A DNA stretch of 33,962 nucleotides from Paracoccaceae bacterium (GTDB lineage: Bacteria > Pseudomonadota > Alphaproteobacteria > Rhodobacterales > Rhodobacteraceae): the NCBI GenBank assembly GCA_009924775.1, contig RFQY01000009.1:1-33962 (forward strand), given 5' to 3'. The first letter of the stretch is position 1; every line of letters starts with the position of its first letter. Under the pieces are notes generated by a model, which was given only the letters and a program-made list of their open reading frames with translations, searched no databases and had not been told where the DNA came from. Made by a program: the position numbers and the translations under genes. Shown in pieces: positions 2 to 17,219 of this stretch.

Positions 2-358
2 GCCGCCGCCCTGCGCGAGGCACAAGAAGAAATTGGCCTGCAGCCCGAAAACGTGCAGGTTTTGGGCACGTTGCCCAGCCATGAAACCGTAACAGCCTTT
101 ACGGTAACGCCGGTTGTTGCGCGTGTTCTGGCGCCTTTTACCCCCCGCCCGGAACCCGGCGAGGTGGACGAGGTATTCGAGGTGCCGCTGGCACATTTGG
201 CAGACCCGGCGCGCTATGGTGTTCAGTCGCGGCGCTGGCGCGGCAGCATGCGCCATTATTTTGCGGTGCCTTGGGGGCCCTATTACATTTGGGGTGCAAC
301 GGCGCGCATTTTGCGCGGCTTGGCGCAGCGGATGCAAGACGATGCAGATCACCGATAG
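2..358 (+). CDS. Nudix hydrolase, probable CoA pyrophosphatase (5' partial)
   Basis: The gene enters from the left edge, so its start is missing; the frame beginning at base 2 runs open to the TAG at 356-358. The first visible residues (AAALREAQEEIGL) are the second half of a Nudix box, REx2EExG, which binds the metal for diphosphate hydrolysis. About 118 residues are visible, mostly the C-terminal part. The Nudix family hydrolyses nucleoside diphosphates linked to another group. The choice of CoA pyrophosphatase (NudL/NUDT8-like) rests on my memory that this subtype often precedes the CCA-adding enzyme in Rhodobacterales, so the substrate is an inference. Its end overlaps the next gene by 17 bases. 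Confidence 0.75.
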   Translation, partial: AAALREAQEEIGLQPENVQVLGTLPSHETVTAFTVTPVVARVLAPFTPRPEPGEVDEVFEVPLAHLADPARYGVQSRRWRGSMRHYFAVPWGPYYIWGATARILRGLAQRMQDDADHR

Positions 359-3385: not shown

Positions 3386-3868
3386 TTAGTCTTCGTCTAG
3401 GCTGCCGTGAATTGCAAATTGTTCGATCCCGGCATTTTGCGGCTGTATCACCCGAAAAGATTCCCGCACGCCGCTTTCTGTCAGTTCGCGCGCAACGGTC
3501 AGCAGGGTGTTGGGCGCATGATCTTCGCAAAGGTCGATCATCTGCGCCAGCTCTTCTTGGGCCACGGGCTGCGCCGCCTCGACTGAGGGGGCGCCATAAT
3601 AGGTAACGAAATGATGCGCCAACAGCCCGGTCAGCACTTCTACCTCGCTTTGTTCAATCGTGGTGACAGCCACAAATGTGGCGCGCCCCCCGGTTTCCAG
3701 CCCAAGCCAGCCATTGGAAAAGGCTTGCCGCGCTTTGCCGGTCAAATCGCCCTCGCCCCAGTTTGAAAACTCGAATCCACCAGAAATGCACCATTCACCG
3801 GTGCGGGCTGGGCTGGCGAAAACGCGTTGATCGCTTTCGTCGAAATGAACGGCGCGGGCAAGTTTCAT
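3386..3868 (-). CDS. DUF6505 family protein
   Basis: This 160-residue soluble protein has no signal peptide or membrane segment. I recognise it as the DUF6505 family, known to me only from alphaproteobacterial genomes and without an assigned function. It begins MKLARAVHFDESD and carries GEWCISGGFEF and a TFVAVTTIEQ segment; only two cysteines are visible, and no metal-binding or catalytic signature. It is the last gene of a four-gene minus-strand operon, overlapping the preceding DUF4444 gene by four bases (ATGA), which suggests translational coupling and a shared task with it. The sequence does not support naming a function. Confidence 0.75.
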   Translation of the reverse strand: MKLARAVHFDESDQRVFASPARTGEWCISGGFEFSNWGEGDLTGKARQAFSNGWLGLETGGRATFVAVTTIEQSEVEVLTGLLAHHFVTYYGAPSVEAAQPVAQEELAQMIDLCEDHAPNTLLTVARELTESGVRESFRVIQPQNAGIEQFAIHGSLDED

Positions 3869-4569
3869 ATGTCTGTCTCCAGCAAGCGGGTCAACGGAAC
3901 AAGGTGTGTGGTTGTGTCATCGCGCAGCAGCATGCCGAAATCTTCGTCTACGCCCAAAAACGTGCCTGACAGACCAAAACAGCTGGTCTGTTCGCCCATG
4001 CCATGGGCCAGCCCGCGCCATTCGGCATGCAGGGGGCGGTTGCCCTCGTCTTCCCAGCGGGTGATCCAATTCATGCTATGACGTGCCCATGCTTCCAGCA
4101 GCTGGGCGGGCGATACATCGGCGCAGCCTTCGGCGAAAAGCGCGGTTTGGTCGGGCGTATCGCCGGGGTTTTCGCTGGGCGGATACAGCGGCAAACGCAG
4201 GCCGATCACCAGCCAATCGGGGGCGGCACTGACATCGGCGCCAGAGGCATAGACCACAAACCCACCGCAGCGCGCGCCATTGATGCGCAGGCCCCCGTCC
4301 CATTGCAGGTGCACCGCAACCTCGGGCGGGGCAATGGCGCCCAGCGCGTTTTGAAAGCCGATACCGCAAAGTGGCAGCATCGCCATGGCCTTGGCCAAGG
4401 GCACCTCGGGCGCCAGAACCAGCCCTGCCTGCAGCTCGTGGCCCAGCAGGTTATAGGCCACAAGGCCAGCATCACAGCCCATGGTGGCACGCATGCGGGC
4501 GTGTTCCACGGCATCGGCAACCGTGGCCTCGCCCCACATCAGGGGTGGAAAGCTGATATCGTTCTGCAC
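3865..4569 (-). CDS. Biotin/lipoate protein ligase-like protein with DUF4444 tail
   Basis: This 234-residue protein resembles the compact biotin/lipoate ligase fold (BPL/LplA/LipB type) with a C-terminal DUF4444 segment (about residues 185-230, GLAHGMGEQTSCFGLSGTF). In true ligases two lysines lie in a KWPND...GRKLAG region. Here the aligned stretch (residues 87-104) reads HLQW...NGARCGGF, with Gln89 and Arg100 at the lysine positions, and the GRGRxG adenylate loop is not evident. It may therefore bind or handle a lipoyl, biotinyl or other acyl group without canonical chemistry. The start is a GTG at 4567-4569, four bases from the Mrp stop, and the end overlaps DUF6505. The fold assignment is moderately sure; the activity is unknown. 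Confidence 0.75.
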   Translation of the reverse strand: MQNDISFPPLMWGEATVADAVEHARMRATMGCDAGLVAYNLLGHELQAGLVLAPEVPLAKAMAMLPLCGIGFQNALGAIAPPEVAVHLQWDGGLRINGARCGGFVVYASGADVSAAPDWLVIGLRLPLYPPSENPGDTPDQTALFAEGCADVSPAQLLEAWARHSMNWITRWEDEGNRPLHAEWRGLAHGMGEQTSCFGLSGTFLGVDEDFGMLLRDDTTTHLVPLTRLLETDI

Positions 4570-4572
4570 GGC

Positions 4573-5643
4573 TTAGGCCACCCCCATCGCCACCAGCGCA
4601 TTGGCCACGTCGGCAAAGGCGCGGGCTTGTTTGCTGTCAGGTTGGCTGACAGTAATCGGCGCACCGCCATCGGCGGCAAGGCGAATTTGCAGATCCAAAG
4701 GTATTTCGGCCAACAGCGGCACGCCCAGCTTGGCCGCCTCTTTTGCCACCCCGCCATGGCCAAACATATGTTCTTCGTGGCCGCAGTTGCTGCAGATATG
4801 GGTGCTCATGTTTTCGATCATGCCCAGAATTGGCACTTTCAACTGTTGGAACATATCAATGCCCTTGCGGGCATCCAGCAGCGCCACATCCTGCGGTGTC
4901 GAGACGATAATCGCGCCATCAACCTTGGCTTTTTGGCTTAGGGTCATCTGCACATCGCCGGTGCCGGGCGGCAGATCAACCAGCAAAACATCCAGCGCGC
5001 CCCATTGCACCTGCATCATCATCTGCTGCAGCGCGCCCATCAACATGGGCCCGCGCCAAACCACGGCTTGGTCTTCGTTGGTCATCAAACCAATCGACAT
5101 CATGGTAACCCCATGATTGCGCATTGGCAGAATGGTTTTGCCATCGGGGCTGGCGGGGCGGCCAGAGATGCCCAACATGCGCGGTTGGCTGGGGCCGTAA
5201 ACATCGGCATCCAGCAGCCCCACGCGGCGCCCTTGGGCGGCCAATGCGCAGGCCAAATTTGCCGAAACGGTGGATTTGCCCACGCCACCCTTGCCGCTGG
5301 CAATGGCGATAATGTGGTTCACACCGGGAATGGTTTCTGGGCCTTTGGGCTGGGCTGGGTGGCCCAGTTTCAAATCGGGCGGCGGTGCCTTTTCGCTGTG
5401 CCCGGTCATAACGATGGCCACTTTGGCCACCCCATCGGCGCTGGCAAGCAGTGCCTCGGCTTGGTCTTTGACCGCTTGATAGGCTTGCGCCTGACTGGGC
5501 GGAATTTCCATGACAAAGCGCACCGCCCCGTCCTCGTCAACGGCCAGCGCACGCACAACGCCGCTGGCAACAATATCGCTGCCAGCCACCGGGTCGGCGA
5601 TGGTTTTCAGCAATTCTAATACTTGGTCACGCGTAGCAGCCAC
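4573..5643 (-). CDS. mrp: Mrp/NBP35-type P-loop ATPase, Fe-S cluster carrier
   Basis: This 356-residue cytoplasmic protein (ApbC/Mrp family) has an N-terminal MIP18-like domain (residues 5-80) and a P-loop ATPase domain with the deviant Walker A SGKGGVGKST around residues 116-125, a LLDADVYGPS switch, and VDLPPGTGD. The family's cluster-bridging CxxC is present (Cys284 and Cys287 in HICSNCG), so a dimer could hold a transferable [4Fe-4S] cluster. It starts with GTG at 5641-5643, one base after the DUF6494 stop, with a purine-rich GGGGGAA upstream. Fe-S cluster delivery is the known role of the family. Its position beside FDH genes, which need many clusters, suggests but does not prove that FDH subunits are clients. 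Confidence 0.9.
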   Translation of the reverse strand: MAATRDQVLELLKTIADPVAGSDIVASGVVRALAVDEDGAVRFVMEIPPSQAQAYQAVKDQAEALLASADGVAKVAIVMTGHSEKAPPPDLKLGHPAQPKGPETIPGVNHIIAIASGKGGVGKSTVSANLACALAAQGRRVGLLDADVYGPSQPRMLGISGRPASPDGKTILPMRNHGVTMMSIGLMTNEDQAVVWRGPMLMGALQQMMMQVQWGALDVLLVDLPPGTGDVQMTLSQKAKVDGAIIVSTPQDVALLDARKGIDMFQQLKVPILGMIENMSTHICSNCGHEEHMFGHGGVAKEAAKLGVPLLAEIPLDLQIRLAADGGAPITVSQPDSKQARAFADVANALVAMGVA

Positions 5644-5644
5644 G

Positions 5645-5836
5645 TTATTCCCCCGCCTTGATTTGGCCTGTCACTTCATGGGTCATGCCCAGCTCTTCGA
5701 TCGTGATTTGAGCTTTTACCTGATAGGTTTTGCCGCCGGCTTGGGCATTGCGCAACGCCTCTTCGATGGCCTGTTGCGATGTGACGCCCACCTGTTTCAG
5801 GAATTTGCGCATCGACATGTTGAAATCTTCGGTCAT
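5645..5836 (-). CDS. DUF6494 family small protein
   Basis: This 63-residue soluble protein starts MTEDFNMSMRKFLKQVG and ends with a beta-rich half (QVKAQITIEELGMTHEVTGQI). I recognise the DUF6494 family from recall; no function is assigned. It has no cysteines, signal peptide or membrane helix. The start is well supported by AAAGGA six bases upstream of the ATG. It is the first gene of the minus-strand operon with mrp, the ligase-like gene and DUF6505, and is separated from mrp by one base. The shape, a helix followed by a small sheet, would suit a small adaptor, but that is speculation. Confidence 0.8.
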   Translation of the reverse strand: MTEDFNMSMRKFLKQVGVTSQQAIEEALRNAQAGGKTYQVKAQITIEELGMTHEVTGQIKAGE

Positions 5837-5892
5837 TGGCGGTCCTTTCAGAATGGTTGACGCGCGAGGCCAAACAGATCTAGCTTTTCTGC
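5837..5892. promoter_or_regulatory. Divergent intergenic region between DUF6494 operon and cytochrome gene
   Basis: These 56 bases separate two divergent genes and must hold the promoters or leader regions for both. The DUF6494 ribosome site AAAGGA lies on the minus strand here. I see no convincing -35/-10 pair or palindrome. Confidence 0.4.
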
Positions 5893-6642
5893 ATGGGACT
5901 GTGGCGCATTATTTTTGGTCTTTGGCTGCTGGTGGCTGTGCCCTTTGCCGCCGCCGCAGACGATAAGATGGTGCGTTTGTTCGCGCCGGCCAGTCTGGCC
6001 GACACCGGCTTGCTTGGGTATATGCTGCCGCGCTTTAGCTTGAAAACCCAAGTGCGCGTTGCCTTGGCTGATACGCCCGATGGCGCCGACGTTGTTTTGG
6101 GCGCCGAAGGGCAGGCGCTGTTTCAGGGGGTGGGCCAGCAATGGCATATGCAGCTGCGCAGCCCCGGCCATGCCCCCAGCCAGCGCTTGGCAGATTGGCT
6201 GCGCTCTGACATTGGCCAGCGCACGGTGCTGGCCTATGCGCCGCAGGGCACCGCGCTGTTCCAGCCGCCCACAGCCGCCCAGACCGCGGCGGTAGCGATG
6301 GAATTTGCCGGCGATGCAGTTCTGGGCCAACGGCTGTCGCGCGAAAAATGCAGCCGCTGCCATGTGGTGGATAATCAGACCCGAATGAGCGGCATAGGCT
6401 CTACACCCAGCTTTGCTGTTTTGCGCAGCTTGCCCGATTGGGACAGCCGGTTCGCGGCGTTTTTCGCGCTGAACCCGCACCCAGCCTTTACGATTATTCC
6501 CGATGTTACCCCGGCGTTCACCGCCCAACGGCCGTCGCCCATCGTGCCCATAACCCTGTCGTTGGACGAGCTTGAGGCCATACTGGCCTATGCCGCCAGT
6601 ATCGAGGCTGCAGATCTGGGCGGGGCGCTGGTGCATCAGTGA
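5893..6642 (+). CDS. Periplasmic cytochrome c with condensed TupA/ModA-like N-terminal domain
   Basis: This 249-residue protein has a signal peptide (residues 1-21, ending FAAAADD). Residues 24-45 (RLFAPASLADTGLLGYMLPRF) resemble the first strand and helix of tungstate-binding TupA-type solute-binding proteins. Residues 94-122 (RLADWLRSDIGQ...GTALFQP) resemble their closing helix and strand, while most of the middle of the fold is missing. A monohaem cytochrome c domain follows, with Cys153-S-R-Cys156-His157 and candidate axial methionine Met167 in TRMSGIG. It is probably an electron carrier exported by Sec. The gene lies in the FDH island and its 3' end overlaps the convergent poly-ferredoxin gene by seven bases. 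The haem site is certain; the binding-protein ancestry is my inference. Confidence 0.8.
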   Translation: MGLWRIIFGLWLLVAVPFAAAADDKMVRLFAPASLADTGLLGYMLPRFSLKTQVRVALADTPDGADVVLGAEGQALFQGVGQQWHMQLRSPGHAPSQRLADWLRSDIGQRTVLAYAPQGTALFQPPTAAQTAAVAMEFAGDAVLGQRLSREKCSRCHVVDNQTRMSGIGSTPSFAVLRSLPDWDSRFAAFFALNPHPAFTIIPDVTPAFTAQRPSPIVPITLSLDELEAILAYAASIEAADLGGALVHQ

Positions 6643-8585
6643 TCGCGCCGCTTGCTAAAGTAATCTTCGGTGGTGCGGGGGCGCGGCCGCTCTTTGCTGG
6701 CAAAGGGGTTATCTTCGGAATGAAACTGCGCATTCACGCGGCAATCGTCGCACATTTGGATCATCCGCAGCTTGCTGCTATCGGCAAACATGGAATGGCC
6801 TTGCAGTTTTTCGGTAATACGCTCGATCGTTGATTTCACCCCAAACAGCGCGCCGCATTCAACGCAGGCAAATGGCTCTTCCTCGTTCAAAATCTCTTGC
6901 GTCAGCGCCGCGTCGGTCAGGTTTAACCGCGGTTCATAGGTAATGGCATCTTCGGGGCAAATGGTGGCGCACAGGCCGCATTGCAGGCAGGCATCTTCCT
7001 GAAACCGCAGTTGCGGCAAATCTGGGTTATCACCCAGCGCGCCCGAGGGGCACAAAGACACACAAGACAGGCACAAGGTGCAGCTGTCGGTATTGACCAG
7101 CACCGCGCCATAGGGCGCGCCTTGGGGCAGGGGCAGAACCTCGGTGCCGGGGTGCAGGGCACGGGCTGCTTGGCGGGTGATTTGCCGGCGCTGGCCCATC
7201 GGGCGCACCGGGTTTGCCACCGGTGTGGGGATGGTTTCGTGAAACAGCATGTCAGACAGAATATCAGGGTCTGTTACGCTTAACAGAGCCACATTTGCCG
7301 CCGCAGAAATGGCCTGCGCCAAGGCCACCTGCGCCTGCAGCGCATCAAGATCGGCGCTGGGCCCGGGCAGGATGCTAACGCTGGCAAAGCCCGCCGCCAA
7401 GGCGGCCACAATTTCAGCATGACCAAAGGCACCAATGGCGCCCATTTCTATGGGGATCACATCGGCAGGCAGGCCATTGCCGAACCGCGCGGCAAGCGCG
7501 ATCATCTCGCCGCCATGCGCATCGTGCACCAGCAGGCGCGGGGCGGTGCCGCCGGCCTGCAAAAAGGCCTTTGCCAGTGTCTGAACACGGCTAAACGTTT
7601 GCGCCACGGGCGGCGCATCGTAGCTGATTGCGCCCGATGGGCAGGCAGACGAGCAGGCGCCGCAGCCCGCACAAATCATGGGATCAACGCTAACATATTC
7701 GCCCGCTGGCATGATCGCCCCTGTTGGGCACAAATCCAAACAGCGCGTGCAGCCGGTTTGTTCGGCCCGGCTGTGGGCACACAGCAGCGGGTCGGTGCGC
7801 ACGTAAAGCGGCTTTTCAAAGGTGCCAACCAGATGCGAGGCGGCCAGCGCGGCCGCTGCCACAGCGGGGGGGTGGCTGGGATCTGCGCGCAGATAGCCTT
7901 CGCGTTTTTCATGGGCTGGAAACAGCGGCTGCGCGCCGCGCAAATCCAGCAAAACATCGCACTGGGTGATGCCGCCATCGCGGGGTGTGGTCAGCGCAAA
8001 GGCGCCCCGCCCGCCGGGCTGCACCGTTTGCAGGGCGTCGATCACCACTTCGAACTGGCCCAAGGCCCCTTTGGCGCGGCGAAACTGGCCAATAACCACG
8101 TCGAAATCGCGGGTATCGGGCAGGGTTTCGGCACTATCCAGCAATACAGTGACACCCAAAAAGCCTTTTAGCTGTTCGGCGACGGGCAGGGTGGTTTCGG
8201 CTGGGCCAAGGATAAGGCACAGCCCCTGCGAAATGACATCAACCGATTTTTCTGGCGCGGCGGGCAGCAGGGCCTCGGCCACCAATGCGGACATTTTGGG
8301 TAGTTTCGAGGCCGGGTCAGCCGACCAGCCAGCCCTGTCGCGCAGGTCCAGCACGTGGGGGGCATCGGCGCCCAATTCCTCGGCCAACTGGGCGAAAAGC
8401 CGGGCTTCTTGGGTGCAGCAAAAAATTGCATCAGGGTCCGAAACAGCGGCGACCGCTTGGTCGATTTGGGTGGTGCATAGGGCAGAACAGGGCCGGCGCA
8501 CCTGCAGGCCGGTGGCCTGCGACAGCGCCTGCGCGTCAATGGGGTTTGACCCCAAACAATCGCATGTAATCAATGTCTTGGTCAT
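6636..8585 (-). CDS. Poly-ferredoxin FDH accessory protein with HdrA/MvhD-like segments
   Basis: This 649-residue cytoplasmic protein sits divergent from DUF3305. Its N-terminal 200 residues (ITCDCLGSN, PCSALCTTQ, DAIFCCTQEA) resemble the start of HdrA-type proteins. Four ferredoxin-type motifs follow in two pairs: GCTRCLDLCP and CAGCGACSSACP, then CTLCLSCVSLCP and CLQCGLCATICP. Between the pairs lies an MvhD-like alpha/beta segment (IPIEMGAIGAFGHAEIV) without that family's cysteines. Near the C-terminus, CVECG and CDDC could bind zinc or a mononuclear iron. The ATG at 8583-8585 has GGAGGGG just upstream and gives a clean N-terminus, although the frame is open further. Proteins of this type accompany FDH genes in many proteobacteria; electron transfer during cofactor insertion is a guess. 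Confidence 0.85.
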   Translation of the reverse strand: MTKTLITCDCLGSNPIDAQALSQATGLQVRRPCSALCTTQIDQAVAAVSDPDAIFCCTQEARLFAQLAEELGADAPHVLDLRDRAGWSADPASKLPKMSALVAEALLPAAPEKSVDVISQGLCLILGPAETTLPVAEQLKGFLGVTVLLDSAETLPDTRDFDVVIGQFRRAKGALGQFEVVIDALQTVQPGGRGAFALTTPRDGGITQCDVLLDLRGAQPLFPAHEKREGYLRADPSHPPAVAAAALAASHLVGTFEKPLYVRTDPLLCAHSRAEQTGCTRCLDLCPTGAIMPAGEYVSVDPMICAGCGACSSACPSGAISYDAPPVAQTFSRVQTLAKAFLQAGGTAPRLLVHDAHGGEMIALAARFGNGLPADVIPIEMGAIGAFGHAEIVAALAAGFASVSILPGPSADLDALQAQVALAQAISAAANVALLSVTDPDILSDMLFHETIPTPVANPVRPMGQRRQITRQAARALHPGTEVLPLPQGAPYGAVLVNTDSCTLCLSCVSLCPSGALGDNPDLPQLRFQEDACLQCGLCATICPEDAITYEPRLNLTDAALTQEILNEEEPFACVECGALFGVKSTIERITEKLQGHSMFADSSKLRMIQMCDDCRVNAQFHSEDNPFASKERPRPRTTEDYFSKRRDH

Positions 8586-8937
8586 CGTTCCCCTCCGGTC
8601 CAAGGGCTGTTTTTGCAGCAGAATTTTCCCTTGGTGCTGGCAAAAGCTAGTCATGAAAGCGGGGGCCGACAACCGGTTTGTTGCCTTGGGGTGGGCGCAA
8701 AGCGTGGCATTTGGCTGTGCCGAATCACCCTTTGATTCGGTTTTGGCTGGCTGGGGGCCGGGCCTTGGCATTTCTGACAAAAAGAATCGGTTTAGACATT
8801 TCGTCCAAACTGGGCCGGTGGGCGGGTGCGCTTTGTCCATTTTGTCCGAGATGCGGCAAACTTGCCGGGCCAAGGGAAAAACCGCTTTTCACAAGCCGGT
8901 GTACCACTGCATTCTTTCCCACGGAGGAAGGCCAACA
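8586..8937. promoter_or_regulatory. Divergent regulatory region of the FDH operon
   Basis: This 352-bp gap between the poly-ferredoxin gene and DUF3305 contains no credible gene. It holds a perfect inverted repeat CCGAATCA/TGATTCGG (8720-8727 and 8733-8740) followed by TTTT, and a related GAATCGGTTT at 8784-8793. It also holds two TTGTCC copies nine bases apart (8833-8838, 8842-8847) with a TCGTCC at 8801-8806. A perfect CGGCAA-AC-TTGCCG dyad lies at 8854-8867, about 70 bases before the DUF3305 start. These are plausible operators for the response regulator encoded at the end of the operon. I found no sequence matching the sigma-54 consensus TGGCAC-N5-TTGC. Confidence 0.55.
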
Positions 8938-9501
8938 GTGATCCATAACCCAAAGATGTATCGCACCATGCCGGTGGGCATTGTCCTGCGCAAAGCGCCG
9001 GGCATTACGCGTTGGGTGAAATGGCACTGGACCGCCAGCGCCATTTTGCCCGGTGCAGGCCCTGCCGATTGGCGCGAGTTGCGGCGCGAGGGCGAGGCGG
9101 TGGAATACCACGCCGCCACCAAGGTGCTGGAATTGCACGGCGCCGATACCGAAGCTTATTTGCATGGTCTCACAGCCGAAGTGCCCAGCCTGTACGTGGT
9201 GATGCGCGAAGGCGAGGGCGATGTGCCGCTGGACATTGTGCTGGTGACCGCCTCGCCCTACGAGGCGCAAGACTACACCGATAGCGGCGAAGAAATCGTG
9301 GAAAAGGTGCCCATGCCGCATGGTCTGGTGGCGTGGGTGCGCGAATTTGTAGAAGAGTTTCACCAAGAAGAGGCCTTCATCAAACGCAAGCGCGACAAGA
9401 AAAACATTGATTTGCGCGAAGACGGCATCGGTGATCCGCGCATTGGCAAGGCCGAAGATGTTTATGCCTCGCCCGCGTTAAAGCGGAGGCGCCTGCAATG
9501 A
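8938..9501 (+). CDS. DUF3305 protein, FDH accessory
   Basis: This 187-residue soluble protein belongs to DUF3305 (MPVGIVLRKAPGITRWVKWHWTA is the family's opening block), always found with DUF3306 in FDH loci as far as I recall. The frame is open far upstream, so the start must be chosen: GTG at 8938-8940 has GGAGGAAG seven bases before it, and an ATG at 8956 is an alternative without such spacing. The tail is strongly charged (KRKRDKKNIDLRED). It overlaps DUF3306 by four bases (ATGA). No enzymatic motif is visible; a role in assembling or regulating FDH is inferred only from context. Confidence 0.85.
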   Translation: MIHNPKMYRTMPVGIVLRKAPGITRWVKWHWTASAILPGAGPADWRELRREGEAVEYHAATKVLELHGADTEAYLHGLTAEVPSLYVVMREGEGDVPLDIVLVTASPYEAQDYTDSGEEIVEKVPMPHGLVAWVREFVEEFHQEEAFIKRKRDKKNIDLREDGIGDPRIGKAEDVYASPALKRRRLQ

Positions 9502-10154
9502 GCGATTTTTGGCAGCGCCGCAAAGCCGAGGTGCAAAAAGAGCAGCTGGCCGAACAGCAGGCCATAGAGGCACAGCTGGTCCGCGAGCACGAGGCGAAGC
9601 TGGCCGAGAAGACCGACGAAGAATTGCTGGCTGATGCGGGCCTGCCCGAACCCGAGGTGCTGGACAGCCCCGAACAGGTGCGCGAATTCTTGCAATCGGC
9701 CCTGCCGCAGCGGCTGAAAACCCGTGCTTTACGGCGTTTATGGCGGCTGAACCCGATTTTTGCGCAACTTGATGGGTTGGTGGATTACGGCGAAGATTTC
9801 ACCGACAGCGCCCGCGTGATCGAAAACATGCAAACCGCCTATGTTGTGGGTAAGGGCATGTTGACCCGCTTTGAAAAAGCCTTGGCCGAGGCAGAAGACA
9901 CAGCCGATGGTGCCGATGATATGGGCGCCCTTGTGGCCGAAGGTGCCGACGGCCAAGACGACAGTGCAGATGCAGGCAATGATGCAGGCAATGACCCCCA
10001 AAATCATGCCCAAGCTCCGCAGCCAGAGCTGGCCAGCGACATGCCCGACAGCCCGCAGCCTGCCCCCTTTGCCGCCTATTACGACAGCGACGAAGATGCG
10101 CCTGTGGCCCTGCCGGCCACCATGCGCCGCATGCGCTTTCATTTTGACACATGA
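9498..10154 (+). CDS. DUF3306 protein, FDH accessory
   Basis: This 218-residue protein begins MSDFWQRRKAEVQKEQ, the hallmark of DUF3306. The N-terminal 60 residues are a charged, probably coiled-coil helix; the middle contains LRRLWRLNPIFAQLDGLVDYGEDF, the most conserved family segment. Residues 130-200 are acidic, low-complexity and probably disordered (repeated GADD, DAGNDAGND). It is coupled to DUF3305 upstream and to the TorD-type chaperone downstream by four-base overlaps, implying that the three are made together. No cofactor-binding motif is present. The family is of unknown function; a scaffold or assembly role fits its composition but is unproven. Confidence 0.85.
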   Translation: MSDFWQRRKAEVQKEQLAEQQAIEAQLVREHEAKLAEKTDEELLADAGLPEPEVLDSPEQVREFLQSALPQRLKTRALRRLWRLNPIFAQLDGLVDYGEDFTDSARVIENMQTAYVVGKGMLTRFEKALAEAEDTADGADDMGALVAEGADGQDDSADAGNDAGNDPQNHAQAPQPELASDMPDSPQPAPFAAYYDSDEDAPVALPATMRRMRFHFDT

Positions 10155-10771
10155 CAGGACTGCCGATGACCGCCGCCGAAAAATTCAAAATCGCCGAAGA
10201 AGACAGACTGCGCGCTGACCTGTATAACTTTCTTGGCGTTATCTTGTCTGGTCCCCCAGATGAAATGCTTTTGGGTCAAACCGCTGGGTTGCAAGGTGAC
10301 AGCACCGATTTGGGCCAAGCGGTAAGCACCTTGGCCAAAATGGCCCGTATTACCAAACCCAGAACCGTGGAAAGCGAATATAACCGGCTTTTCATTGGTT
10401 TGGGCCGGGGCGAGTTGCTGCCCTATGCCAGCTATTACCTGACGGGGTTTTTGAACGAAAAGCCGCTGTCCCTGCTGCGCCAAGACATGACAGCCCAAGG
10501 GCTGGCGCGGGCGCAAAACGTGTTTGAACCCGAAGATAATATCGCCAGCCTGATGGAAATGATGGGCGCAATGATTGTGGGCCGCTTTGGCACGCCCGCC
10601 GATCTGAACACCCAGAAAACATTTTTCAACAAGCATATTGGCCCATGGGCGGGGCATTTCTTTTCAGATTTGGAAGGCGCCAAAAACTCGGTTTTCTATG
10701 CGCCGGTCGGCACTGTCGGGCGGTTGTTTATGGATGTCGAGGTGGAAGCCTTTCGGATGAGCGCGGCCTGA
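10151..10771 (+). CDS. TorD/DmsD-family molecular chaperone
   Basis: This 206-residue, all-helical cytoplasmic protein matches the redox-enzyme maturation chaperones. These bind the Tat leader of a molybdoenzyme and hold it for cofactor loading. Visible signatures include DLYNFLGVILSGPPDE near the start, EYNRLFIGLGRGELLPYASYYLTGFL in the middle and a DxxNTQKTFFNKHIGPWAGHFFSDLE block. The ATG at 10151 overlaps the DUF3306 stop; a second ATG at 10166 would shorten it by five residues and cannot be excluded. Directly downstream lie a Tat peptide gene and fdhA, whose Tat leader is the likely client. Confidence 0.9.
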   Translation: MTGLPMTAAEKFKIAEEDRLRADLYNFLGVILSGPPDEMLLGQTAGLQGDSTDLGQAVSTLAKMARITKPRTVESEYNRLFIGLGRGELLPYASYYLTGFLNEKPLSLLRQDMTAQGLARAQNVFEPEDNIASLMEMMGAMIVGRFGTPADLNTQKTFFNKHIGPWAGHFFSDLEGAKNSVFYAPVGTVGRLFMDVEVEAFRMSAA

Positions 10772-11018: not shown

Positions 11019-11119
11019 CTGGACGATGCATCGTGGTGGAACAACTGGTTGCGTGAGGCCCGACCGTTCCGCCGTTTCGAGGCCAAGCGCGCATGGTGCG
11101 CGTGAAGGGAGATGACAAC
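11019..11119 (+). promoter_or_regulatory. Structured leader before fdhA
   Basis: This 101-base gap carries a perfect 12-bp palindrome ACGATGCATCGT (11023-11034) and a stem CGCGCA-TGG-TGCGCG (11088-11102). The stem ends four bases before the AGGGAG ribosome site of fdhA. They could protect the fdhA transcript end or modulate fdhA translation relative to the Tat peptide. Confidence 0.35.
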
Positions 11120-14017
11120 ATGTTGAGGAAAAAGACCAACGGGGTTGCGCGACGCCCCCAGCGGACAAGTATCCTTTCCGAGGTGGCAAACGCCTCGGTG
11201 GACCGCCGTGCGTTTTTGCGCGGCTCTGGTCTGGCAATCGGGGGCCTGGCGGCTGTTGCTGCCACTGGCGGCACCGTAACCCAGGCCAATGCAGCCTCGG
11301 CCGCAACTGGTGCGGTAGAGCTGAAAAAATCGGTCTGCACCCACTGTTCGGTTGGGTGTACCGTTGTGGCCGAAGTGGCCGATGGCGTTTGGGTTGGGCA
11401 AGAGCCCGGCTGGGACAGCCCCTTTAACCTAGGTGCGCATTGCGCCAAAGGTGCCTCTGTGCGCGAACATGCCCATGGCGAGCGCCGCTTGAAATACCCG
11501 ATGAAAAAAGAGGGTGGCGAGTGGAAGCGCATCAGCTGGGAACAGGCGATCAACGAGATCGGCGACAACATGCTGAAAATCCGTGGCGAAAGTGGCCCGG
11601 ACAGCGTGTATTGGCTGGGATCGGCCAAGCACAATAACGAACAGGCCTATCTGTTCCGCAAATTCGCGGCCTATTGGGGCACGAATAACGTGGACCATCA
11701 GGCGCGTATTTGTCACTCGACCACGGTTGCAGGTGTTGCCAACACTTGGGGCTATGGTGCGATGACAAACTCGTACAACGATATCCACAATTCCAAGGCC
11801 ATCTTCATCATCGGCGGCAACCCTGCCGAGGCGCACCCCGTCTCGCTGTTGCACGTTTTGAAGGCCAAAGAGCAAAACAACGCCCCCCTCATCGTGTGCG
11901 ACCCGCGCTTTACCCGCACGGCGGCGCATGCCGATGAATATGTGCGTTTCCGTCCCGGCACCGATGTGGCGCTGGTATGGGGCATCTTGTGGCACATTTT
12001 TGAAAATGGCTGGGAAGACAAAGAGTTCATCCGCACCCGCGTGTGGGGCATGGACCAAATCCGCGAGGAAGTGGCCCGCTGGACCCCCGAAGAAACCGAG
12101 CGCGTCACCGGCGTGCCCGGCAGCCAGCTGCGCCGCGTGGCCCTGACCATGGCCAACAACCGCCCCGGCACCGTGATTTGGTGTATGGGTGGTACGCAGC
12201 ACACCAACGGCAACAACAACACCCGCGCCTATTGCGTGCTGCAGCTGGCACTGGGCAACATGGGTGTGTCGGGTGGCGGCACTAACATCTTCCGCGGCCA
12301 CGACAACGTGCAAGGCGCAACCGACCTTGGCGTTCTGTCGCACACCCTGCCCGGCTATTACGGCTTGGCCAAGGGTTCGTGGGGCCATTGGGCGCGTGTT
12401 TGGGGCGAAGATTTTGACTGGCTGAACAGCCAGTTCGCCAAGATGAAAGGCGCCGACGGCAAGGACAAAGACCTGATGTATGAAACTGGTATTCCGGTTT
12501 CGCGTTGGATCGATGGTATCCTTGAAGACGCCGAAAACATCGACCAGCCCAACAACGTGCGCGCCATGGTTTTGTGGGGGCATGCGCCCAACTCGCAGAC
12601 GCGCATGGTGGAAATGAAAAAAGCCATGGAAATGCTGGACATGCTGGTCGTGATCGACCCGTATCCAACCGTTTCGGCTGTTTTGCATGACCGCACAGAT
12701 GGTGTTTACCTGCTGCCCGCAGCCACCCAGTTCGAGACACACGGCTCGGTTACCGCGTCGAACCGCTCGATCCAATGGCGCGAGCAAGTGGTGGCGCCGC
12801 TGTTCGAATCCAAGCCCGATCACGAGATCATCGGCTTGTTTGCGAAAAAGTTTGGCTACCACGACCGGATGTTCCGCAACATCAAGATCGAAGATGACGG
12901 CATCACGCCGAATATCGAAGATACGTTGCGCGAAATTAACCGCGGCATGTGGACTGTGGGCTATACCGGGCAATCGCCCGAGCGCCTAAAGCTGCACATG
13001 GCCAACCAGCACACCTTCGACCGCACAACGCTGCGCGCCGTTGGTGGCCCAGCCGATGGCGATTACTACGGTCTGCCATGGCCCTGCTGGGGTACGCCGG
13101 AAATGCGCCATCCGGGTTCGCCCAACCTGTATAACATCAACATACCAGTCGCCGATGGCGGCCTGCCCTTCCGCGCCCGTTATGGCGTAGAGCGCAATGG
13201 TGAAAACCTGCTGGCCGAGGGGGTTTCAAACCCCGGGGCGGAAATTCAGGATGGGTATCCCGAATTTACCATGCAGATGTTGATGGATCTTGGCTGGGAT
13301 GGTGACCTGACCGCAGAAGAACGCGCAGCGATCGATGCGGTTGCCGGGCCGAAAACCAACTGGAAAACCGACCTGTCGGGCGGCATCCAGCGGGTGGCCA
13401 TCAAGCACGGCTGTGCGCCCTATGGCAACGCCAAGGCCCGCACCGTGGTGTGGACCTTCCCCGACCCGATCCCGGTGCATCGCGAACCGCTTTACACCAA
13501 CCGCCGCGATCTGGTGGCCGATTACCCCACCTACGAAGACCGCAAGTTCTATCGCCTGCCCACGATGTATGCATCGATCCAAAAGCAGGACTTCAGCAAA
13601 GACTACCCGATCATTCTGACATCGGGCCGTCTGGTTGAATACGAAGGGGGCGGCGACGAAACGCGCTCGAACCCGTGGTTGGCGGAATTGCAGCAAGACA
13701 TGTTCGTCGAAATCAACCCGCGCGATGCCAATAACCTTGGCGTGCGGGACGGCGCGCAGGTTTGGGTTGAAGGGCCAGAAGGTGGCAAGGTGAAGGTGAT
13801 GGCCATGGTGACCGAACGGGTGGGTGAAGGCGTGGCCTTTATGCCCTTCCACTTTGGTGGCCATTTCCAAGGCGAGGATCAGCGCGGGAAATACCCCGAT
13901 GGTGCAGACCCCTATGTTTTGGGCGAATCCACCAACACTGCGCAAACCTATGGCTATGACAGTGTGACCCAGATGCAAGAGACGAAGGCGACTCTTTGCA
14001 AAATCATGCCAGCGTAA
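11120..14017 (+). CDS. fdhA: Periplasmic formate dehydrogenase catalytic subunit alpha (Cys type)
   Basis: This 965-residue molybdo/tungsto-bis-MGD enzyme oxidises formate to CO2. It has a Tat leader with VDRRAFLRG (Arg29-Arg30). An N-terminal [4Fe-4S] site follows (Cys73, Cys76, Cys80, Cys108). The metal-ligand/catalytic pair is Cys198-His199 in RICHSTTVAG, so the enzyme uses cysteine, not selenocysteine. The C-terminal MGD-binding barrel includes ILTSGRLVEYEGGGDETR. An in-frame ATG at 11093 exists, but ATG 11120 has AGGGAG eight bases before it. Its size and organisation match the FDH-N/FDH3-like membrane-linked enzymes exported together with FdhB. The cofactor metal (Mo or W) cannot be read from sequence. 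Confidence 0.95.
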   Translation: MLRKKTNGVARRPQRTSILSEVANASVDRRAFLRGSGLAIGGLAAVAATGGTVTQANAASAATGAVELKKSVCTHCSVGCTVVAEVADGVWVGQEPGWDSPFNLGAHCAKGASVREHAHGERRLKYPMKKEGGEWKRISWEQAINEIGDNMLKIRGESGPDSVYWLGSAKHNNEQAYLFRKFAAYWGTNNVDHQARICHSTTVAGVANTWGYGAMTNSYNDIHNSKAIFIIGGNPAEAHPVSLLHVLKAKEQNNAPLIVCDPRFTRTAAHADEYVRFRPGTDVALVWGILWHIFENGWEDKEFIRTRVWGMDQIREEVARWTPEETERVTGVPGSQLRRVALTMANNRPGTVIWCMGGTQHTNGNNNTRAYCVLQLALGNMGVSGGGTNIFRGHDNVQGATDLGVLSHTLPGYYGLAKGSWGHWARVWGEDFDWLNSQFAKMKGADGKDKDLMYETGIPVSRWIDGILEDAENIDQPNNVRAMVLWGHAPNSQTRMVEMKKAMEMLDMLVVIDPYPTVSAVLHDRTDGVYLLPAATQFETHGSVTASNRSIQWREQVVAPLFESKPDHEIIGLFAKKFGYHDRMFRNIKIEDDGITPNIEDTLREINRGMWTVGYTGQSPERLKLHMANQHTFDRTTLRAVGGPADGDYYGLPWPCWGTPEMRHPGSPNLYNINIPVADGGLPFRARYGVERNGENLLAEGVSNPGAEIQDGYPEFTMQMLMDLGWDGDLTAEERAAIDAVAGPKTNWKTDLSGGIQRVAIKHGCAPYGNAKARTVVWTFPDPIPVHREPLYTNRRDLVADYPTYEDRKFYRLPTMYASIQKQDFSKDYPIILTSGRLVEYEGGGDETRSNPWLAELQQDMFVEINPRDANNLGVRDGAQVWVEGPEGGKVKVMAMVTERVGEGVAFMPFHFGGHFQGEDQRGKYPDGADPYVLGESTNTAQTYGYDSVTQMQETKATLCKIMPA

Positions 14018-14028
14018 GGAGATAGAGA

Positions 14029-14622
14029 ATGGCTAGAGCAAAATTTCTCTGTGACGCCGAGCGCTGCATTGAATGCAACGCCTGCGTTACCGCATGTAAA
14101 AACGAGCACGAAGTGCCATGGGGGATCAACCGCCGCCGTGTGGTGACCATCCAAGATGGTAAGCCGGGTGAACGCTCGATTTCGGTGGCTTGCATGCACT
14201 GTTCAGACGCGCCTTGTATGGCCGTTTGCCCGGTGGATTGCTTCTACCAGAACGAAGAAGGCGTTGTTTTGCACTCGAAAGACCTGTGCATCGGCTGCGG
14301 TTATTGCTTCTACGCGTGCCCATTTGGTGCGCCGCAATACCCGCAAGCGGGCAACTTTGGCTCGCGCGGCAAGATGGACAAATGCACATTCTGCGCCGGT
14401 GGCCCGGAAGAGAACCATTCGAAAGAAGAGTTCGCAAAATACGGCCGCAACCGGATTGCCGAAGGCAAACTGCCCATCTGCGCCGAGATGTGCTCGACCA
14501 AGGCGCTGCTGGCGGGTGATGGCGATGTTGTATCGGCCATCTACCGCGAGCGTGTTGTCGCCCGTGGCTTTGGCTCGGGTGCATGGGGTTGGGGCACCGC
14601 CTACGACCAGAAAGGCGGCTAA
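14029..14622 (+). CDS. fdhB: Formate dehydrogenase iron-sulfur subunit beta (FDH3 type)
   Basis: This 197-residue four-cluster ferredoxin subunit passes electrons from FdhA to the membrane subunit. Four cysteine groups are visible: CIECNACVTACK (cluster motif 1), CMHCSDAPCMAVCP (2), CIGCGYCFYACP (3), and the split CTFC...CAEMC group (4). It lacks its own signal peptide, so it is probably co-exported through the Tat leader of FdhA. It is shorter than E. coli FdnH/FdoH and lacks their C-terminal anchoring helix, so membrane attachment must come from FdhC. AAGGAGA sits before the ATG, and the gene follows fdhA by 11 bases. Confidence 0.95.
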   Translation: MARAKFLCDAERCIECNACVTACKNEHEVPWGINRRRVVTIQDGKPGERSISVACMHCSDAPCMAVCPVDCFYQNEEGVVLHSKDLCIGCGYCFYACPFGAPQYPQAGNFGSRGKMDKCTFCAGGPEENHSKEEFAKYGRNRIAEGKLPICAEMCSTKALLAGDGDVVSAIYRERVVARGFGSGAWGWGTAYDQKGG

Positions 14623-14729: not shown

Positions 14730-15938
14730 ATGCTGCGTCACATGGTGGCCTTTCTCGCCGTGGTATTGCTGTCGCTGCCCGCCGCGGTGCAGGCCCAGCA
14801 AGCCGAGGCGCCCGCGCCCATCGATCGCTCTGCTACGGGCGGTGCACAGACTTTGGAAGACATTCTTGCCCGTCAGCGTGGTGAGAAAATCGACGATTCA
14901 TTCCGCCGCGAAGGCAATGAAGGCAGTGCTTTGCCTGCCCCGGGCCTGGGCCCGCACGGTTCGGCATCTGACCCGGAATTGTGGCGCGCGCTGCGCTACA
15001 ACACCCTAGAGGCCACAGTCAGCACCCGCGACCAAGTGGGCCGCGTGCTGGTGCAAGACGGCGGCATGGGGTGGTATCAGTTCCGCCAAGGGCCATTGGC
15101 CAGCTATGGTGGCTGGCTGCTGTTGGGCACAATCGCAGCGTTGGTGGTGTTTTTGGCGCTGCGGGGCCGGGTAAAGCTGGATTATGAAAAAACCGGCCGC
15201 ACAGTGACCCGCTTTAAGGCGTTCGAGCGGTTTTCGCATTGGTTGCTGGCCAGCTCGTTTATCTTGCTGGGCCTGACCGGGCTGCTAACCATGTTTGGGC
15301 GCAGCTTTATTGCCCCCTATTTGGGCAAAGACGTCAATGCATGGCTTTTGCTGGTATCAAAATATATCCACAACAACGTGGCTTGGGCCTTTATGCTGGC
15401 GCTGGTCTTTGTGTTTTTCTTGTGGGTCTGGCACAATATTCCCAACCGCACAGACCTGACATGGTTTGCGCAGGCAGGCGGGATTATCGGCAAAAAGCAC
15501 CCCCCCGCGAAAAAGTTTAACGCCGGTCAAAAGATTATTTTCTGGTCGGTTATCGTGCTGGGTGGCTCGATCTCGGTGTCGGGGCTGTCGCTGCTGTTTC
15601 CATTCCAGATGCCGCTGTTTGCCCATACGTTCGAGCTGTTGAACGGCTGGGGTATTCCCGAAATGCTGGGCATGGGCACCCTGCCCACCGAATTGGCCCC
15701 GCAAGAGGAAATGCAGCTGGCGCAGGCATGGCATGCGATCGTGGCCTTTGTTCTGATGGCGATCATTATTGCGCATATCTATATCGGCTCGGTCGGTATG
15801 GAGGGCGCGTTTGATGCCATGGGTTCGGGAGAGGTAGACGAGGCTTGGGCCCGCCAGCACCATTCGCTGTGGCTGGAAGAGGTGCGGGCCAAACAGGGCG
15901 GCACCGGCGTGGAAGGTGCGAAAACCCCGGCGGAGTAG
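14730..15938 (+). CDS. fdhC: Formate dehydrogenase cytochrome b subunit gamma
   Basis: This 402-residue integral membrane di-haem cytochrome b556 family protein would anchor FdhAB and pass electrons to the quinone pool. A signal peptide (LRHMVAFLAVVLLSLPAAVQA) and a periplasmic extension of about 90 residues precede the membrane core. Hydrophobic helices are seen near residues 125-148, 168-190, 208-232, 268-290 and 332-356, with candidate haem histidines in FSHWLL, YIHNN, WHN, AWHAIV and IAHIYIG. It is much longer than E. coli FdnI (about 217 residues) because of the N-terminal extension and tail. The ATG at 14730 follows AAGGAGATAAACC. Confidence 0.93.
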   Translation: MLRHMVAFLAVVLLSLPAAVQAQQAEAPAPIDRSATGGAQTLEDILARQRGEKIDDSFRREGNEGSALPAPGLGPHGSASDPELWRALRYNTLEATVSTRDQVGRVLVQDGGMGWYQFRQGPLASYGGWLLLGTIAALVVFLALRGRVKLDYEKTGRTVTRFKAFERFSHWLLASSFILLGLTGLLTMFGRSFIAPYLGKDVNAWLLLVSKYIHNNVAWAFMLALVFVFFLWVWHNIPNRTDLTWFAQAGGIIGKKHPPAKKFNAGQKIIFWSVIVLGGSISVSGLSLLFPFQMPLFAHTFELLNGWGIPEMLGMGTLPTELAPQEEMQLAQAWHAIVAFVLMAIIIAHIYIGSVGMEGAFDAMGSGEVDEAWARQHHSLWLEEVRAKQGGTGVEGAKTPAE

Positions 15939-15944
15939 GGCAGC

Positions 15945-17219
15945 ATGCGGCGCTTGCTTGCTGTGCTGGCTAGTGTCTGCGCCACCACGCTGGGGGCGCA
16001 GGAATTTACAACGCTAAAGGGGCATGGCGGGCCCATCATGGGGCTTGCCATGTCGCCTGCGGGGCAGATCGCCACGGCCAGCTTTGACAATTCCGTGGGG
16101 CTTTGGTCTGCCGATGGGCCCACGTGGCTAGAAGGGCACGAGGCTGCTGTTACCGCAGTGGCCTTTGGCCCTGATGGCCAATTGGTGACGGGGGGCGATG
16201 ATTTCACGGTGCGCCTTTGGGGGGCTGCGCCCAAAATTTTGGGCCAGCACCAAGGCAAGGTTACATCAGTGCAGGTATCGCCTGATGGCCAGCATGTGCT
16301 GTCGGCCAGTTGGGATGGCACGCTGCGCCTGTGGCCGCTGGCCGGTGGGGCGGCGCAGGTGTTGCGGGTGCCGGGCACCGGTATCAACGCCGCCATTTTT
16401 GGCCCCGAAGGCCGGCATTTTTTCGTCGCCACGGTGAATGGCCAAATCTTGCGCTTTGATCGGCAGGCCGATGCCGCGCCGCTGCCCTTGGTGAAGCACG
16501 GGTTTGGCGTTACGCGGCTTGTGGCCCATGGGCCGTGGTTGGCCTATGGCGCGGTCGATGGTGGCACCCGCGTGGTCTGGGCCGAGACAGGCGCGCAACT
16601 GGCCGATTTCTCGCTAGACCGCCGCCCCGTGCTGGCCTTGGCCTATCATGCCGACAGCGCGCAATTGGCCGTGGGCGATGGCCATGGGTATATTATGATG
16701 GTGGACACCAACACATGGCGCATTGCCCGCGATTTCAAGGCCACGCGCAAGGGGCCGGTATGGGCCTTGGCCTTTTCACCAGATGGCGCCAGCATTTACG
16801 CCGGTGGGCTGGATGATGTGGCCTATGGCTGGCCTGTGGCCCTGCTGGATGCGTTTACGCCCAGCATTTCTGGCCAACGCAGCTTCTTGCGCGATGTGGA
16901 AACCATGCCCAATGGCGAACGGCAATTCATGCGCAAATGTTCGATCTGCCATGCGCTGGGGCCCGGCACCTCGCGCAAGGCGGGGCCTACGCTGCATGGG
17001 GTGTTTGGCCGCCCGGCTGGCAGCGTTCCGGGCTATTATTATTCCCCAACCCTGCGTAATGCGCAGATCGTTTGGACCGAAGACACCATCAATGCCCTGT
17101 TCGACATGGGCCCCGACCACTATATCCCAGGGTCTAAGATGCCCATGCAAGTGATTGCAGGCGCCGACGACCGTGCCGATTTGATTGCTTATCTGAAACA
17201 AGCCACCAAGAAAGAGTGA
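15945..17219 (+). CDS. Periplasmic WD40 propeller fused to cytochrome c
   Basis: This 424-residue protein has a Sec signal peptide (cleavage probably after TLGA). About six to seven WD40-like blades span residues 20-310, with recurring GHxxxVxxVxFxPDG...D..VRLW units such as LEGHEAAVTAVAFGPDG and SASWDGTLRLW. A mitochondrial-type cytochrome c domain follows, with Cys332-S-I-Cys335-His336, a GPTLHGVFGRPAGSVPGY block and candidate axial Met399 in GSKMPMQ. It starts six bases after fdhC, so it is a genuine member of the FDH operon. The cytochrome could accept electrons from the FDH or relay them onward, with the propeller as docking surface. The partner and function are unknown. Confidence 0.88.
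   Translation: MRRLLAVLASVCATTLGAQEFTTLKGHGGPIMGLAMSPAGQIATASFDNSVGLWSADGPTWLEGHEAAVTAVAFGPDGQLVTGGDDFTVRLWGAAPKILGQHQGKVTSVQVSPDGQHVLSASWDGTLRLWPLAGGAAQVLRVPGTGINAAIFGPEGRHFFVATVNGQILRFDRQADAAPLPLVKHGFGVTRLVAHGPWLAYGAVDGGTRVVWAETGAQLADFSLDRRPVLALAYHADSAQLAVGDGHGYIMMVDTNTWRIARDFKATRKGPVWALAFSPDGASIYAGGLDDVAYGWPVALLDAFTPSISGQRSFLRDVETMPNGERQFMRKCSICHALGPGTSRKAGPTLHGVFGRPAGSVPGYYYSPTLRNAQIVWTEDTINALFDMGPDHYIPGSKMPMQVIAGADDRADLIAYLKQATKKE

Follow-up and report, generated by a model that had tools for sequence, protein, structure and literature searches.

A cytochrome c with a one-lobed TupA-type domain in the FDH islands of Rhodobacteraceae

The window (the whole stretch of DNA analysed, 33,962 nucleotides) holds a formate dehydrogenase (FDH) island in which we confirmed an open reading frame at 5893-6642 on the (+) strand, running from ATG to TGA and encoding 249 amino acids (Table 1). 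Its GC and GC3 are similar to those of the neighbouring genes, and a promoter scan found no sigma-70 site for it. The sequence points to cleavage of the signal peptide after about A22. The initial annotation had placed a CSRCH haem domain downstream of a TupA-like part, and this was borne out: the motif lies at residues 153-157, and its two cysteines and histidine are invariant among 88 members of the family. On the basis of these motifs, export and haem attachment are predicted, and the product would be a soluble periplasmic monohaem c-type cytochrome.

Table 1. Features of the FDH island in the window and of the fused cytochrome gene within it
Feature	Coordinates	Strand	Evidence
DUF6505 protein	3386..3868	-	family match
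BPL_LplA_LipB_2 + DUF4444 protein	3865..4569	-	family match
Mrp/ApbC iron-sulfur carrier ATPase	4573..5643	-	PF10609 E 7e-101; NCBIfam ApbC just under cut-off
DUF6494 small protein, divergent neighbour of fused gene	5651..5839	-	PF20104, E 1e-27
Predicted signal peptide, residues 1-22	5893..5958	+	hydrophobic stretch and AAAA|DDK; first helix of model 3-23
Single-lobe TupA-type domain, residues 25-128 (lobe A; lobe B deleted)	5965..6276	+	profiles, model, structural matches
Variable linker, residues 129-138	6277..6306	+	mean pairwise identity 16% over residues 127-138
Class-I-type cytochrome c domain, residues 139-249	6307..6639	+	Pfam Cytochrom_C in 77/88 members; structural matches
CSRCH haem-binding motif, residues 153-157 (H157 proximal ligand)	6349..6363	+	C153, C156 and H157 invariant in 88 members
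H196 in PHP motif, candidate sixth haem ligand	6478..6480	+	His in 88/88
Large 4Fe-4S protein, convergent neighbour of fused gene	6636..8615	-	Fer4 domains
DUF3305	9001..9501	+	family match
DUF3306	9498..10154	+	family match
TorD/NarJ-type chaperone	10151..10771	+	PF02613
FdhA, Tat-exported molybdopterin subunit	11093..14017	+	TIGR01591 E 1e-144, below cut-off; Tat motif DRRAFLRG
FdhB, iron-sulfur subunit	14029..14622	+	sequence; synteny
FdhC, membrane cytochrome b (gamma) subunit	14730..15938	+	TIGR01583 above cut-off

The order of genes around the fused gene is near-fixed: DUF6505, BPL, Mrp and DUF6494 read in one direction, the cytochrome gene in the other, the 4Fe-4S gene back towards it, and DUF3305, DUF3306, TorD, fdhA, fdhB and fdhC again in the direction of the cytochrome gene. 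Among 78 fused-gene loci with long flanks, the 4Fe-4S neighbour was present in 78/78 and fdhA lay within the fetched stretch in 77/78. Homologues are thus found mostly beside FDH genes and not away from them, which upholds the link to FDH drawn in the initial annotation. An earlier survey described DUF3305/DUF3306 upstream of dmsD-fdhGHI operons, and the part of it that deals with this arrangement mentions no cytochrome (PMC4464133). The group of DUF6505, BPL/DUF4444, Mrp and DUF6494 genes (window 3386-5839, (−) strand) travels with the FDH island almost everywhere, and a literature search for its role found no paper. A further cytochrome of the FDH operon, apparently undescribed as well, is encoded at 15945-17219 on the (+) strand of the window, a WD40 propeller fused to a C-terminal cytochrome c; its gene adjoins fdhC in many Rhodobacteraceae and in some Alphaproteobacteria outside the family. 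FdhA itself occurs in two forms in Rhodobacteraceae, one matching the window's FdhA over its full length and the other over residues about 5-755 only, and both are found with and without the fused cytochrome.

We surveyed the family in 295 Rhodobacteraceae genomes, nearly one per genus. A match was found in 106/295; one of these is a mere TupA piece (G029) and two are cytochrome-only genes (G004, G054), leaving the fused form in 103/295, with one gene per genome. The closest named relative, 92% identical, comes from an uncultured Lutimaribacter MAG (Rhodobacteraceae). When presence of FdhA was scored as a match at ≥70% identity, 101 genomes had FdhA together with a homologue of the cytochrome (99 fused, 2 cytochrome-only), 27 had FdhA alone, 4 the cytochrome alone and 163 neither. 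A homologue is therefore present in 101/128 genomes with FdhA vs 4/167 without (Fisher p about 1e-47, which overstates the association as the genomes are not phylogenetically independent). Of the four exceptions, three are assemblies split into 210-300 contigs, and the fourth, G168, does have fdhA, on the contig that also carries its cytochrome gene (L087). Two Rhodobacteraceae genomes carry a cytochrome-only gene outside the FDH island (L089:10011-10442 and L090:5310-5723), with fdhA elsewhere in both. Beyond the family, the fused form appeared in a sample of 385 alphaproteobacterial genomes only in Rhodobacteraceae and one other family (f80: G579, G656), and a search of 398 genomes of the phylum found none elsewhere. 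Of 20 FDH clusters without the fused gene that we fetched, 16 preserve the full gene order, in which the 4Fe-4S gene directly adjoins DUF6494 or Mrp, and a haem-domain match was found in 0/20. That these clusters are intact around a clean gap shows the gene to be a dispensable insert in a conserved island. The fused cytochrome is thus a facultative accessory of the Tat-exported FdhABC FDH.

The ancestry of the N-terminal domain is visible only with a family profile, because searches with the single sequence were uninformative: the NCBIfam TupA model (NF041772) gave the window protein E 0.17 and 11.3 bits, below its 400-bit cut-off, and the top PDB matches, DNMT3A among them, were at chance level. 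The full TupA of the window genome likewise falls under that cut-off, at 227.5. We built a profile from 88 homologues of the fused protein, nearly all from different genera. Against the PDB it matched 3muq (E 1e-4) in two pieces (5-53 and 213-236) with the middle missing, and 5my5, the TupA of D. alaskensis (E 7e-4), also in two separated pieces; one-piece matches were to 3cvg (E 4e-4) and to a Geobacter TupA, 3lr1 (E 0.03). NCBIfam TupA matches 40/88 members, the best at 1.7e-6. An HMM of residues 23-126 scored 33-58 bits on 18 full-length TupA-like proteins, whereas 40 column-shuffled half-domain HMMs, run as a control, scored ≤6.9 bits. The match was again in two pieces, with roughly 1-52 of the profile on 20-90 and 51/67-101 on 218-280 of the TupA-like proteins, and profile-profile comparison gave a probability of 98.6-99.1%. 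The ancestry from a TupA-type metal-oxyanion binder proposed in the initial annotation is borne out by these two-segment matches, which score well above the shuffled controls.

Structure prediction also gave a TupA-like and not an unrelated fold. In an AlphaFold model of the fused protein built on a 77-sequence alignment, residues 31-120 have pLDDT 95-98, and the best structural match among 1000 pre-ranked PDB chains was TupA 5my5 (Z 13.3, rmsd 2.3 A, 104 residues); next came 3muq, 3cvg and ModA proteins, with Z 10-12. Foldseek with the whole two-domain model gave TupA just E 6e-3 to 1e-2, presumably a consequence of the split match, which VIA-align resolves by superposing model residues 25..128 on 3..251 of the 5my5 chain. 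In TupA, lobe A consists of A2-R76 and Y201-E251, and lobe B of A91-Q200 (PMC5517513). Structural matching found no counterpart of lobe B in the fused protein, and, compared with full-length TupAs, HMM alignments show one deletion of about 140 residues. The 25..128 to 3..251 match and the published lobe limits together therefore identify the domain as lobe A, with lobe B cut out. The lobe A fold (a beta-alpha-beta core with C-terminal helices) is present, and the second lobe and hinge strand of the TupA-type fold are absent from the HMM alignments. The N-terminal domain descends from a TupA-type protein that lost the whole of lobe B. The earlier description of TupA-like opening and closing elements around a missing centre therefore stands; their extent does not, as the similarity spans all of 25-128 and not just the first 22 mature residues and 94-122. 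The picture of a condensed TupA without the centre of its fold also holds, yet what is retained is a complete lobe and what is missing is the other complete lobe.

The tungstate site of TupA is thought to use the lobe-A motif TTTS together with R118, T124 and D170 of lobe B (PMC5517513). The TTTS-equivalent positions, assigned by profile-profile alignment to residues 31-34, are A/P/x/x across the 88 members, and R118, T124 and D170 fall within the deleted lobe. With TTTS lost and the lobe-B ligands deleted, TupA-style tungstate binding by the fused protein is very unlikely. Other residues of the lobe are strongly conserved: R47 is invariant (88/88) and K51 is present in 87/88, one turn apart on helix 40-52, and we consider the pair a candidate docking patch. 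Between two genomes of the same genus, dN/dS was 0.10 for the lobe and 0.16 for the haem domain, indicating purifying selection on both; cross-genus values were discarded for saturation.

The haem domain has the CxxCH motif and the fold of class I cytochromes c. Pfam Cytochrom_C matches 77/88 members at E up to 1, with the window protein under the Pfam cut-off, and the domain modelled alone gave matches at Z 5.2-7.4, all of them cytochromes c among the matches listed, including 7zs0-7zs2, SoxX 1h31_B, and yeast and other cytochromes c. Similarity over the full length to cytochrome c549 (1f1c; E 0.37), a cytochrome of the bis-His type, was weak and was gone after trimming. We found no conserved Met column after H196 that could supply the canonical axial Met, and 35/88 members lack any Met beyond it; H196, in the PHP motif, is invariant. 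The simplest reading is that H157 and H196 would be the haem ligands, making H196 a candidate for the sixth position. The distant relatives L212 and L215, which have a PHPxMP motif, share the equivalent histidine, so conservation of H196 alone is no proof of ligation, and a five-coordinate haem is also possible.

The surroundings of related genes suggest how the fusion may have arisen. In other alphaproteobacterial families there is a cytochrome-only relative of about 125-150 aa, in several cases in the same kind of FDH island. At L222, L223 and L227, the cytochrome-only gene lies within about 1-2 kb of a separate gene for a full-length TupA whose motifs are intact; L234 has two full-length TupA genes in the FDH island and the cytochrome on another contig. 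In Rhodobacteraceae, a full tupA often lies about 3 kb from the fused gene (e.g. G086, G197, G171, G282). On a parsimonious reading, two neighbours in the FDH island would have fused, with the binding protein cut to one lobe. In a tree of the haem domain, whose 115 columns do not resolve one fusion from several, ten cytochrome-only genes group together (93/75). L221, a cytochrome-only gene from another family at the standard position, falls inside the fused clade with moderate support, which suggests that it may have lost the lobe domain after fusion. In some FDH islands, the direct neighbour of DUF6505 encodes a further TupA-like protein (L237:6617-7432, L246:3882-4688, L251:9206-10015), which is more divergent and has 43-45% identity to the TupA of the window genome. 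The tup genes of the window genome (permease, ATPase and full TupA) lie on another contig, L233:294-2472. A candidate Mo/W regulator is encoded downstream of them, at L233:2506-3432: a helix-turn-helix protein of the excisionase type, in which the C-terminal part is matched by the corresponding part of a molybdopterin biosynthesis model.

The tight linkage to FDH, the loss of the oxyanion site and the conserved haem domain together favour a redox accessory with the lobe as scaffold or docking domain. The fused cytochrome is probably an electron-transfer accessory of FDH, and a role as electron carrier is plausible; its predicted location in the periplasm is on the same side as the active site of the Tat-exported FdhA. 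The retained lobe would most likely serve as a scaffold for docking or dimerisation, bringing the haem close to FDH or its membrane partner, and the haem would take up or hand on electrons, in turnover or as a side acceptor. Since FdhC already provides a link to quinone and the cytochrome is missing from many genomes, it may be a side route for FDH, a buffer or a partner used under certain conditions; it is not needed for FDH activity, given the 27 genomes that have FdhA without it. We rate this account as a whole, a TupA-derived one-lobed cytochrome serving FDH as a redox accessory with its lobe as scaffold, at about an even chance. Against it, the gene lies outside the group transcribed with fdhABC and is divergent from Mrp, BPL and DUF6505, an arrangement that a part in maturation would fit too. 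The cytochrome would then serve FDH assembly and not catalysis, for instance by supplying or accepting electrons when cofactors or iron-sulfur clusters are repaired in the periplasm. This is the main rival, and its setting speaks for it: the gene lies about 50 bases from the divergent Mrp/ApbC-BPL-DUF6505-DUF6494 group and sits between that group and the 4Fe-4S protein, adjoining the DUF3305, DUF3306 and TorD chaperone genes. We nevertheless consider it unlikely, as the cytochrome is predicted to be exported whereas the neighbouring maturation-like proteins look cytoplasmic, and FDH clusters without the fused gene are common and intact.

The ancestry of the lobe invites readings in which it retains some part of its former trade. 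The initial annotation had raised a redox-gated metal sensor, in which a single lobe would still bind tungstate or molybdate and the haem would report or gate. Full TupA genes are often in or near the same islands, and ligand binding by an isolated lobe is reported for some type II binding proteins (LAO, HisJ, ArgBP; PMC10601554). The replacement of TTTS in all 88 members and the position of the other ligands in the deleted lobe do not support the proposal, and the window genome retains its own permease, ATPase and full TupA; we think it quite improbable. Binding proteins of ABC importers contact the permease through two faces, one of which is lobe A, and together with the frequent proximity of tupA this would allow the lobe to dock on TupB, with the redox state of the haem blocking or modulating tungsten uptake. 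That the fused gene tracks FDH instead, and is far less common than full tupA (103 vs 193/295 genomes), makes such a competitor of the TupBC permease very unlikely. A one-lobed type II binder acting as haem-linked regulator of W/Mo supply to FDH, through redox-dependent docking on TupB or a rebuilt oxyanion half-site, is a long shot. The domain could also be the functionless relic of an eroded binding protein accidentally fused to a cytochrome, and the syntenic L221, which has the cytochrome without the lobe inside the fused clade, would fit. Length, fold-core residues and R47 are kept across the 88 members, almost every one of a different genus, however, and the dN/dS of the lobe points the same way, so that a relic seems highly improbable. 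For the redox accessory of FDH that we favour, natural clusters with and without the cytochrome occur in culturable strains, which makes its role directly testable; Roseovarius nubinhibens ISM and Sagittula stellata E-37 are among the cultured carriers of the gene. The analysis also flags an undescribed cytochrome as an accessory of an FDH common in Rhodobacteraceae.

Half-sized binding proteins are mostly laboratory-made, as tests of how two-lobed binding proteins arose. Here nature appears to have gone the opposite way, trimming a tungstate-binding protein to a single lobe that was put to new use in a redox protein. Precedents for single lobes are the engineered half ribose-binding proteins (PMC9815098, PMC10601554) and a natural substrate-binding protein of a single alpha/beta domain from Rhodothermus marinus (Bae et al. 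2018, as cited in PMC10601554). Compared by their descriptions, these share with the fused protein a binding-protein lobe without its partner; the passages describing them mention no haem domain and no FDH linkage, and the engineered halves are of type I. We found no description of the fused family in the open-access literature, and its relatives on sequenced plasmids are annotated as 'hypothetical protein' (4/5) or 'c-type cytochrome' (1/5). Like TupA (5MY5), the fused protein has the lobe A fold and sequence over residues 25-128 and is exported by prediction, and some of these FDH islands contain a TupA gene or have one close by. Unlike TupA, it is without lobe B, hinge, TTTS and the lobe-B ligands, carries a haem c domain and is not in a tupBC operon. 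With the cytochrome-only relatives (L222, L223, L224, L227) it shares the haem domain, the (G)STPSF and PH motifs and the FDH island, whereas they have no lobe domain and, in L222, L223 and L227, a full-length TupA nearby as a separate gene. It resembles class I monohaem cytochromes c (SoxX 1h31_B; the Kustd1711 haem domain, 7zs0-7zs2) in fold (Z 6.8-7.4) and single CxxCH, and differs from them in that the axial Met is not conserved and H196 is invariant instead. The fused cytochrome is thus an undescribed FDH accessory, made of known parts in a new domain architecture.
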